34,075 nucleotides of DNA from the NCBI GenBank assembly GCA_026932145.1, contig JAIXKT010000022.1, positions 24,874-58,948 on the forward strand, given 5' to 3'. This DNA comes from Bacteroidia bacterium (GTDB lineage Bacteria; Bacteroidota; Bacteroidia; J057; JAIXKT01). The notes beneath the pieces are model-generated. The model was not told the origin of the DNA. It saw only the letters and a program-made list of their open reading frames with translations, and searched no databases. Both the position numbers and the translations under genes were made by a program. Below, piece by piece: positions 1,823 through 23,778 of this stretch; position 1 is the stretch's first letter; each line of letters starts with the position of its first letter.

Positions 1823-2590
1823 TTATTTGATGTATTTCTCAAACGGTTTCACGAATTTCTTAATCATATCATCTGCACGCTTTTTTGCTTGTGTTACAAA
1901 ATGTTTCAAATACAATTTTGCCCAACTTTTCATTGATCCATCAAACGATTGGTCTAAGTCGCTAACGTGAAACTGAATTTGCATTGCGGCCGCCCAATTT
2001 ATGTATAAGTTTTCGGGATTTACTTTGAATAAACAAGCGAAATGCGTGTCTTGACAAACCAATTTATCGTTGTTGAGCAACCAATCAATTTCAAAATAGT
2101 TGATTGTGAAATTGTCAAACTCTTCGTTGTCCAACATTTTTGCACAGACTTGTGCTAACTTGAAAGCGGAAATAATGTTTGGTGGTTGTGCAGATTTAGA
2201 AACATTACGTGTTTTAATATCAATGATTTCGTAAAAATCATTTTTTACAACTAAAATATCTGCGGTATCGTTTTGTTTTTCGTCAAACGGATTTTCAATA
2301 CTCCATTTATCTGTTGCGTTTTTACCTCGACTTAGTAAAAACAAAACTGTTGGCGAATTGAATAAATTTTGCCTTGCTTGAAAACCGATAACATTCGGAT
2401 TTTTACTAAACAAATCGTTCAGATATTCGTATTGGCGAAAAGTGTTTTTCGGAAATTGTTTTTTGATTTCACTGTAAACGTGTTTATCAAATGGTTCTCC
2501 TGCCGCGTGTCCTGACAATGTTCCCGAAAGTGGTTTTGGAACGGAAGTACCTTTTATACTTTTTGCTAACTTGCTATAATTTACGTTCAT
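1823..2590 (-). CDS. hincIIR-like: Type II restriction endonuclease, HincII family
   Basis: This 255-residue protein should cut unmethylated DNA at GTYRAC, leaving blunt ends. From memory it aligns with HincII (258 residues) almost end to end: the blocks SGTLSGHAAGEPF, NSPT-LFLLSRGK, NDTADIL and NWAAAMQIQFHV are nearly the same. The active-site acids and lysine are Asp111, Asp124 and Lys126 (NDTADIL...EIIDIKTRN), each three positions before HincII Asp114, Asp127 and Lys129. Gln135 matches HincII Gln138, the residue that intercalates into the DNA. Nothing is truncated. The start ATG overlaps the stop of the methyltransferase gene as ATGA, so the toxic enzyme is translated after its partner. 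Confidence 0.95.
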   Translation of the reverse strand: MNVNYSKLAKSIKGTSVPKPLSGTLSGHAAGEPFDKHVYSEIKKQFPKNTFRQYEYLNDLFSKNPNVIGFQARQNLFNSPTVLFLLSRGKNATDKWSIENPFDEKQNDTADILVVKNDFYEIIDIKTRNVSKSAQPPNIISAFKLAQVCAKMLDNEEFDNFTINYFEIDWLLNNDKLVCQDTHFACLFKVNPENLYINWAAAMQIQFHVSDLDQSFDGSMKSWAKLYLKHFVTQAKKRADDMIKKFVKPFEKYIK

Positions 2591-4236
2591 TTTCGGGTTT
2601 CAAAAAGTTGATTAAACAATGCGCTTATTTTTGCAAGCAACTTTTCATCTTTGTTTGTCAAAAATTGTTGCGTAAAACCAGTAATTGAATTGTGAAGTAA
2701 AACTTCGTTTTTGTTGTTCCAGTTTATTTTTCGGAACGGAATACTTGCAATTGGTTTTTCAGAAAACTCAACGATATTTCCTTTAACAATGCCATTGCAT
2801 TTTAGCCAATCAAAAATTATGGTTTGATTGAGATATGCCAAAATATATTCAATACTCTCTTTGGTTTCGGGTTTTCTGAAAATTGCCGTTACGTCTTGTG
2901 TCGGAAAAATACCACCTTCAACCAACGCAAAACGAAAATAATTTTTGTTGGAAATTCGCTCTTTGCAAGGAACAAAAATTCGTTTGTCGGATTTGCTGAA
3001 TAAATTGAAATTTCGCAAGAAAACCCACTCCCAATAATTTATTTTTCGGTTGTATTGGTAGCGTTTTTCTAAATCGGCTTTGTATTTCTGAAAATGCAAA
3101 TAATAGTTTGGATATGTCTTTTGAAACTCAGTTTCTTCTAAACCGTCATTGACGAAAATGTATCTCGTAATTTGTTTTGCAAAAAACGGTATCAAATCTT
3201 TTGCTTTAACTACGTTAATTGTTGCCGCTTTTTCGGCATTGTTTAGTTCGTGTCCATTTACTTGAAATGCTTTATCCAAACCGCTTACAAGTCCATTTCC
3301 GATGTCGCAAACTTCGCCAATGGTGTGAAACTCTATTTTTTCTTCTTCAAAAAAACTGAGCAACGAATTTGGATTTTGCTTTTTACAAACTGTTTCTAAT
3401 TGCTGTAATTCTTCCCGAACTTCATCACTTTGCAACAACCAACGTTCGTTTGTTTTGAATTGTGAAACTTGCAAATACTCTGCGTCCTTAAAAGGAATTT
3501 GTTGTTGTAATTTTTCAAGTGTTTCAGAAGTTAGTTTTTGATTGGCGTAAAATTTTGCAACATTTATACTTCGACTACGCTCAGCATAAGTTTGGTTCGT
3601 GAGCGTAGTCGAACGAACAAACTTAAAAATAATAATAGAAACGGTTACTTTATCAAAAATTGGTGTTTCATTGAAATGATAAATTTCTTCAAAGTAGCCG
3701 TGTTGAACCATATAATTACGCAACGAAATGGAATGAGTTGTATTCATCCAATATTCGGGACAAATGAAAATCAGTTGTCCGTTTTCGTTTAATAATTCAA
3801 TAGATTTGAGAATGAAAATATAAAGGTAATCGCAAAGCGAGTTAAAGTATTTATTCCAAATTGGATTAAGTGAAAGTTCTTGTTTTAGTTCGTCTTCCAA
3901 ATTTTTCCAACGTATGTATGGTGGATTTCCGATAATTAAATCAAACTTTTCGTCAATGTTTGCAGAAACAAAACTTTCATAGCGAACAAACGGAAATTCC
4001 CTTGCTAAATCTTGGTCAATTTCATAAGCCGTCAAGTCATTGTAGCCTTTTTGTTTCAGCGTTTCTAAGAATATTCCCTCGCCACAAGATGGCTCTAAAA
4101 TTTTAGAATTTGCGGAAATGCGATGAACTGAACTTACCGAAGTTTCAGCCAACCCAACCATAAAGTCAGCCACTACTTTTGGTGTAAAGTACTGCCCAAA
4201 TTTGTTTTTGGCTATATGTTTTACTGAAATTTCCAT
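2587..4236 (-). CDS. hincIIM-like: Type II N6-adenine DNA methyltransferase, partner of the HincII-like enzyme
   Basis: The product (549 residues from the ATG at 4236) should methylate adenine in GTYRAC and protect host DNA. In order, it shows motif X (GQYFTP, about 14-19), the SAM-binding motif I (EPSCGEG, about 48-54) and the catalytic motif IV (NPPY, about 104-107), which is the gamma-class order. The C-terminal half would be the target-recognition domain. An open frame extends two codons upstream to a TTG, but the ATG lies about 10 nt from the predicted transcription start and is preferred. Residues about 208-223 (including YAERSRS) are encoded by a palindromic repeat inserted in frame, which helps explain why the protein is longer than M.HincII. 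A 4-nt overlap joins it to the endonuclease gene. Confidence 0.92.
   Translation of the reverse strand: MEISVKHIAKNKFGQYFTPKVVADFMVGLAETSVSSVHRISANSKILEPSCGEGIFLETLKQKGYNDLTAYEIDQDLAREFPFVRYESFVSANIDEKFDLIIGNPPYIRWKNLEDELKQELSLNPIWNKYFNSLCDYLYIFILKSIELLNENGQLIFICPEYWMNTTHSISLRNYMVQHGYFEEIYHFNETPIFDKVTVSIIIFKFVRSTTLTNQTYAERSRSINVAKFYANQKLTSETLEKLQQQIPFKDAEYLQVSQFKTNERWLLQSDEVREELQQLETVCKKQNPNSLLSFFEEEKIEFHTIGEVCDIGNGLVSGLDKAFQVNGHELNNAEKAATINVVKAKDLIPFFAKQITRYIFVNDGLEETEFQKTYPNYYLHFQKYKADLEKRYQYNRKINYWEWVFLRNFNLFSKSDKRIFVPCKERISNKNYFRFALVEGGIFPTQDVTAIFRKPETKESIEYILAYLNQTIIFDWLKCNGIVKGNIVEFSEKPIASIPFRKINWNNKNEVLLHNSITGFTQQFLTNKDEKLLAKISALFNQLFETRK
3570..3613. repeat. Palindromic repeat inserted in frame within the methyltransferase gene
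   Basis: The arms ttcgactacgctca (3570-3583) and tgagcgtagtcgaa (3600-3613) are perfect 14-bp inverted copies around a 16-bp loop. Read on the minus strand the element keeps the frame open and gives a peptide containing AERSRS, a string I associate with a palindromic repeat spread through Bacteroidota genomes. A second overlapping pairing is possible between aagtttggttcgt (3588-3600) and acgaacaaactt (3613-3624), with one bulged base. Confidence 0.85.
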
Positions 4237-4252
4237 TTTCAAATACTATTTA

Positions 4253-4260: not shown

Positions 4261-4309
4261 GAAAAATCAAGTTGATAGGTCAGATCTGGTCGTTTTTATT
4301 CATAACCTT

Positions 4310-4356
4310 TTGACGAAGTACTGTGCCCCAAAATGGCACACAACGCTTGACGAAGT
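4310..4356. repeat. Short repeat remnant upstream of the restriction-modification operon
   Basis: A 10-bp direct repeat, ttgacgaagt, occurs at 4310-4319 and 4347-4356. Between the copies lie gccccaaaa (4325-4333) and ggcacacaac (4335-4344). Both strings also occur, in the minus-strand reading, at the two edges of the palindromic element at 1686-1820. This looks like a decayed junction of the same repeat family on the far side of the cassette. The rest of 4261-4481 holds no gene that I can see. Confidence 0.4.
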
Positions 4357-4481
4357 TCCGAGAAAAAAAAGAGAAGACCAAAATTTATTTTGGGATTCCG
4401 GTGGCAATAGCGTCCTAAATAAATTTTAAGTCAATCAAATTTATCGATTACATATGTTAAAGGTAAAATATCTTGAAAGAC

Positions 4482-23739: not shown

Positions 23740-23778
23740 AAAGCATAACTTATCTTTTAATAAGATAAGTTATGCTTT
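23740..23778. terminator. Bidirectional intrinsic terminator
   Basis: The arms aaagcataacttatctt (23740-23756) and aagataagttatgcttt (23762-23778) form a perfect 17-bp stem with a 5-nt loop. The stem ends in A/T runs on both sides. It lies between two converging genes (ends at 23723 and 23798) and can stop both. Confidence 0.85.

Follow-up and report, generated by a model that had tools for sequence, protein, structure and literature searches.

A coding palindrome in a HincII-type DNA methyltransferase gene probably combines two units of a small repeat dispersed in Bacteroidota

The best-known palindromes that form part of protein-coding sequence are those of Rickettsia and Wolbachia. The Rickettsia palindromic elements (RPE) are said to go back to Ogata et al. 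in 2000. RPE, which measure 100-150 bp (PMC3767692), and the Wolbachia WPE are dispersed palindromes that unrelated genes, even essential ones, tolerate in frame, with orthologues carrying them at a shared position (PMC3767692, PMC2996958). PARCEL repeats and the coding palindromes of Nematomorpha mitochondria are also palindromic DNA translated in functional proteins (PMC2996958, PMC6649704). The CGTC/TGTC-tagged REPs (Di Nocera et al. 2013), which include RPE-4, RPE-6 and dRS3 and are reported in some Bacteroidetes, have 8-9-bp stems and 4-5-nt loops (PMC3733652). Finally, the GTAG REPs and REPINs, which go with RAYT, are small intergenic palindromes that are often paired.

The palindrome analysed here lies inside a DNA methyltransferase gene, in a stretch of 34,075 nucleotides from a Bacteroidia bacterium (the window). 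It is composed of units of a repeat which behaves in the manner of the RPE and the intragenic REPs, the CGTC/TGTC class especially, while lying outside their size and stem/loop definitions. Like RPE and WPE, it is dispersed, sits in frame in unrelated and even essential genes, and recurs at the same place in orthologues; its in-frame insertions are missing from other orthologues, as in RPE (about 55 empty homologues of the methyltransferase, and histidyl-tRNA synthetase). However, the units are of 20-30 bp (44 bp for the two together), with a constant core of 14 nt, and differ from RPE in phylum and apparently in sequence. The likeness to Rickettsia elements proposed in the first-pass annotation thus holds for gene entry and tolerance, but not for size. 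With the CGTC/TGTC REPs, the repeat shares a mostly intergenic placement that is rarely between divergent genes and sometimes intragenic, and the absence of transposase association, here as regards the Y1 family; TGTC next to a short stem is seen in repeat-rich genomes and not in the window units. In contrast to those REPs, its stem is of 3-5 bp, mostly with 3-4 paired positions, and freely variable, and it is the 14-nt loop that is conserved. The ATGAC motif of RPE-4/6/7 also occurs beside the core in rich genomes, which is a lead only. The GTAG REPs resemble the repeat in their small size, intergenic location and pairing, whereas in the core GTAG is not conserved (GTAG, GAAG and GGAG occur) and no RAYT link was found. 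PARCEL and Nematomorpha palindromes differ in being longer arrays or long arms encoding conserved protein, and are unrelated in sequence. The features of the locus, in window coordinates, are the following.

2587..4242, minus strand: HincII-type N6-adenine DNA methyltransferase gene (open reading frame; start TTG at 4242 or ATG at 4236)
1823..2590, minus strand: full-length gene of the HincII endonuclease partner (Pfam Endonuc-HincII, 8e-149, 1-247 of 247)
3567..3590, minus strand: unit 2, older, right-hand in gene orientation; 24-bp in-frame insertion CTTATGC-TGAGCGTAGTCGAA-GTA (gene strand), residues ~216-223
3570..3583, plus strand: core of unit 2, 14 nt (left arm of the palindrome on the plus strand)
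3588..3624, minus strand: unit 1, younger, left-hand in gene orientation, in the window only; AAGTTTGTTCG-[TTCGACTACGCTCA]-CGAACCAAACTT (gene strand)
3600..3613, minus strand: core of unit 1, 14 nt (right arm of the palindrome on the plus strand)
4121..4144, minus strand: third unit, 24-bp in-frame insertion AACTTCGGTAAGTTCAGTTCATCG (gene strand), residues ~32-39, near the N-terminus

The methyltransferase product has 551 residues (Pfam Eco57I, 9.4e-24; N6_Mtase, 2.7e-10), and the closest structural matches of its model are CamA, M.BseCI and M.TaqI. The gene overlaps by 4 bases that of the endonuclease, which matches HincII (PDB 2aud, 3e-114) and conserves the ADI...DxK region. Because this partner is intact, the methyltransferase is presumably still working and protecting the host. 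As first reported, the palindrome has perfect 14-bp inverted arms, TTCGACTACGCTCA at 3570-3583 and TGAGCGTAGTCGAA at 3600-3613, around a 16-nt spacer, and both arms are in frame within the intact minus-strand reading frame (4242-2587), with the intact endonuclease gene adjoining. As single-stranded DNA the 44-mer folds with a z of -6.3 against shuffles, and it is one of only two pairs of perfect arms of at least 13 bp within 60 bp in the 34-kb window. Other repeats were also observed in the window. Upstream of the methyltransferase, at 4295-4370, ACTTCGTCAA-type pieces stand on either side of a TGTGCC...GGCACA palindrome, which looks like another Bacteroidota intergenic repeat, and 23740-23778 is taken up by perfect inverted arms of 17 bp around 5 nt (AAAGCATAACTTATCTT), which resemble a terminator or may be another repeat. 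An IS5-family transposase gene (99-1208) lies near the restriction-modification pair; the GC content is 42% in the 1500-base block with this gene and 34% in the blocks with the pair.

Comparison with homologues showed that the 44 bp are two repeat units of different age, with separate histories, instead of the single mobile element first supposed. A scan with one genome per species gave 68 loci, 61 of them spanning most of the methyltransferase. The palindrome site reads like FVKSKQKTDKIKVAKF in nearly all, and four hold extra sequence there: the window, L046 (Bacteroidia SJ334), L047 (Flavobacterium croceum) and L059 (Cytophagales bacterium). L046 reads CTTGTGC-TGAGCAAAGCCGAA-GTA at the same codon position as unit 2, and L047 has a decayed version of unit 2 at the same codon; therefore, the 24-bp insertion is older than the window lineage. 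In these two relatives, unit 2 would be an inherited or transferred insertion. The idea of a stretch unique to this copy is thus borne out in part: unit 2 is missing in about 55 other homologues, but L046 and L047, at about 86% identity, carry it at the same place, which is half of what the first-pass annotation had named as speaking against it (the same residues in distant species). Unit 1 is missing in both. The same loop in L059 contains unrelated GC-rich palindromes (AERRPTERRPTERRP), with a few further copies of its unit GACGGAACGCCGYC in that genome. In the tree, the window, L046 and L047 belong to a supported group of six alongside three empty relatives, and the branching inside the group is not separated. 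Because the carriers of unit 2 do not resolve as one clade among the six, either one gain followed by losses or recombination is likely.

Unit 1 did not lengthen the gene. Its central 26 nt stand in place of native sequence (compare AAGTTTGTAAAAAGC... in L046 and L016): from the anchor AAGTTTGT to CTTRTGC there are 26 nt in the window and in L046 alike, and therefore unit 1 replaced native sequence of equal length. As a consequence of this overwriting, the net gain at the palindrome site relative to empty homologues is 8 residues (24 bp), and not the 15 or so announced previously. Unit 1 has paired, family-like arms (GTTCG/CGAAC) and folds at -7.5 kcal/mol (z -2.9); unit 2 alone has a weak stem and no stable fold. 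The third unit, overlooked in the first pass, is a TTCGGCAAGCTCA variant that has decayed and whose stem measures 3 bp (AAC/GTT); it is missing in all homologues compared and occurs once in the genome. No direct target-site duplication, which a MITE should show along with termini shared with a full-length transposon, was found at the three sites having empty homologues. An inverted target duplication was considered as the origin of the arms and is attractive for unit 1, where AAGTTTG is ancestral; it is not established, because L046 already has AAACTT downstream and because neighbouring copies at C42 share the same arms. Both insert sites are predicted surface loops (AlphaFold2), between strands or between helix and strand, with pLDDT below 50 at residues 213-221 and averaging 67 at residues 31-40. 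On the predicted model, the inserts thus lie in a surface or unstructured segment, as RPE do.

The family to which these units belong has a simple anatomy, in which two short arms, freely variable yet self-complementary over at least 3 bp, enclose a fixed 14-nt core, TTCGACTWCGCTCA. Of the 295 genomes sampled from the class, 56 contain the exact core TTCGACTACGCTCA. Since it reaches 82 copies per genome (the range is 1 to 82) while the reversed control is near zero, this is not chance; one complete genome (G060) has 138 copies, TAC and TTC variants together. Among 244 distinct flanks, the two arms pair at position 1 in 95% of cases, at position 2 in 93% and at position 3 in 90%, against 66, 35 and 40% expected from composition (z 17-20). 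The covariation score of 44 hand-picked distinct copies was 0.894, compared with 0.246 when shuffled and at most 0.156 when slid, and because this subset was picked for diversity, the 244-flank test is the less selected of the two. We infer that the units would form hairpins with a constant loop when single-stranded. In repeat-rich genomes an outer TGTC tag is usual (copies read in G105 and G060), and the window units have none. The first-pass description of a dispersed Bacteroidota palindrome lying mostly between genes was correct: 62 of 71 loci are outside open reading frames, rarely between divergent genes (5 divergent, 26 convergent and 31 co-directional, compared with 76, 71 and 186 random intergenic points). 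In one genome, G011, we observed three longer hairpins (L270, L271 and L132) with arms of about 20 bp (GTAATTTA..TTTTTGGGTCAT) around the same 14-nt core; these long arms are different from those of the other copies, and the methyltransferase site of G011 is empty. The repeat has no match in Rfam, and its exact core is not printed in the open-access papers searched, where shorter strings matched unrelated papers only. It is therefore apparently undescribed, although a description may exist beyond that literature.

Copies inside genes are not restricted to the methyltransferase. Among 262 distinct copies, 39 fall in long open reading frames, some of them by ordinary coding chance. The proposal that the repeat enters genes in frame and is tolerated there is supported by unrelated proteins: histidyl-tRNA synthetase in repeat-rich genomes, with in-frame units in three species of one genus, a type ISP enzyme, the kynureninase, glycosyltransferase and riboflavin synthase reading frames, and T9SS sorting domains, of which there are several. 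At the histidyl-tRNA synthetase loci (L344-L349), three sister species bear another repeat, of the ATCGAATGTCGAA type, in the same loop, which suggests that loop hot spots are common to unrelated repeats, even in an essential enzyme. SEAE-type matches in a peptidase S46 and in a sigma-factor-like reading frame, both from low-copy genomes, were set aside, because ordinary coding sequence probably happens to fit the degenerate pattern there. Nor does an open frame set the core apart: five of its six frames are open, but shuffled 14-mers are equally so.

The repeat was expected to be common in the same genome. On the contrary, the exact core was found nowhere else in the host, and a search for the 44-bp element (exact arms, surrounding sequence) gave nothing similar. 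One-mismatch matches number 12, against 5 in the reversed control; because this excess is only about two-fold, host copies were recognised by their paired arms and not by count. The variant copies inside host genes occur only in a type ISP enzyme, in two type III Mods and in a GIY-YIG reading frame that adjoins one of these Mods. With the methyltransferase included, all in-gene copies of the host are in restriction-modification or nuclease reading frames. The copy in the C42 Mod looks like a replacement and not an insertion, because the protein has the same length as its homologues. Restriction-modification genes make up 4/4 in the host versus 1 of about 17 annotated in-gene copies elsewhere, with a rough p of 0.0008, the two sets being unequally sampled and the 17 being our own tally. 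These genes probably brought the units with them by horizontal transfer, which is the simplest cause of such a concentration. Carriage by viruses or plasmids was considered and rejected, as no plasmid relative of the methyltransferase and no paired cores in viral contigs were found; viral relatives of the enzyme are more distant ones only. Two arrays were observed in the host. In the type ISP gene (L004, G000 contig C5, ~3665-3935), about eight 36-bp repeats built on the core form an in-frame array, which precedes the NPPY motif and is partly masked as N. One type III Mod (L008, G000 contig C9, ~7948) has about 15 in-frame 27-bp repeats (ELNFENTGT units) with a core copy at the end, a possible case of methyltransferase length variation.

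Altogether, we think it likely that a short repeat dispersed in Bacteroidota has supplied both halves of the palindrome, as two units kept as tolerated passengers in permissive loops. Units would enter permissive places, and one arriving in frame in a surface loop, with the protein still working, would be retained. First, the 24-bp unit 2 would have entered the loop between the last strand of the catalytic domain and the next strand, either in an ancestor that the window shares with L046 and L047 or ahead of a transfer among these lineages. At a later time, unit 1, in inverted orientation, would have overwritten the neighbouring 26 bp; it may have been newly inserted, or the first core may have been copied locally by a template switch. 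The third unit would have reached the N-terminal loop in a separate event. The search for a mover, which covered Y1 transposases, identified none.

The alternative that survives best is a sub-model of this explanation, so that its likelihood overlaps with that of the whole: unit 2 would be the sole true insertion, and unit 1 a local inverted copy of it produced by replication template switching. This would account for the overwriting at equal length together with the exact 14/14 match, for arms that are perfect in the window though unit 2 has diverged in L046 and L047, and for a host genome that offers no other exact core as source. However, the match ends exactly at the 14-nt family core, and a plain copy of unit 2 would not provide the paired GTTCG/CGAAC arms of unit 1. 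We consider this sub-model a serious contender that falls short of an even chance. What we favour is that a passenger was inserted first and that a second event, whether another insertion or a local template switch, then overwrote the adjacent bases. More tentatively, and with rather low expectation, we speculate that repeats with a constant 14-nt loop and an arbitrary stem form a class whose spreader recognises the loop in single-stranded or cruciform DNA, overwrites or inserts without target duplication, settles repeatedly in DNA-methyltransferase genes and seeds in-frame tandem arrays such as the 36-bp type ISP and 27-bp Mod repeats.

It is improbable that the 44 bp arrived as one mobile palindromic element in the manner of RPE. 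Indeed, the perfect, identical arms and the frequency of paired core copies in rich genomes are what such an element would leave, but L046 and L047 have unit 2 alone at the same codon, unit 1 replaced 26 bp without a change in length, close pairs in rich genomes have one orientation in 32 of 32 (hand count), opposite to that of the window pair, and the host has no 44-mer-like sequence elsewhere. A GTAG-type REP moved by RAYT/IS200-type Y1 transposases is more doubtful still: size, intergenic bias and paired copies are REP-like, yet PF01797 has no match in the host or in G060 with its 138 copies, and the 95 kb around 30 Y1 genes contain 0 core copies. Least credible of all is a selected protein feature, such as a specificity linker, with an incidental DNA palindrome. 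The site does abut the specificity half and related enzymes differ in length there, but each of the five open reading frames has the same 14-nt core, as do unrelated proteins, and the loop is predicted to be disordered.

The passenger reading, in which tolerated units accumulate in permissive loops, would mean that the process known in Rickettsia and Wolbachia also operates in another phylum. Here homologues with empty and occupied sites are available, and therefore the order of insertion and its tolerance can be read directly. A constant loop with a variable stem is an unusual constraint that points to some DNA-processing activity. Moreover, concentrated in the restriction-modification genes of a host where it is otherwise scarce, the repeat may serve as a tracer for the transfer of those genes, and it could be one way in which methyltransferases come to vary in length.
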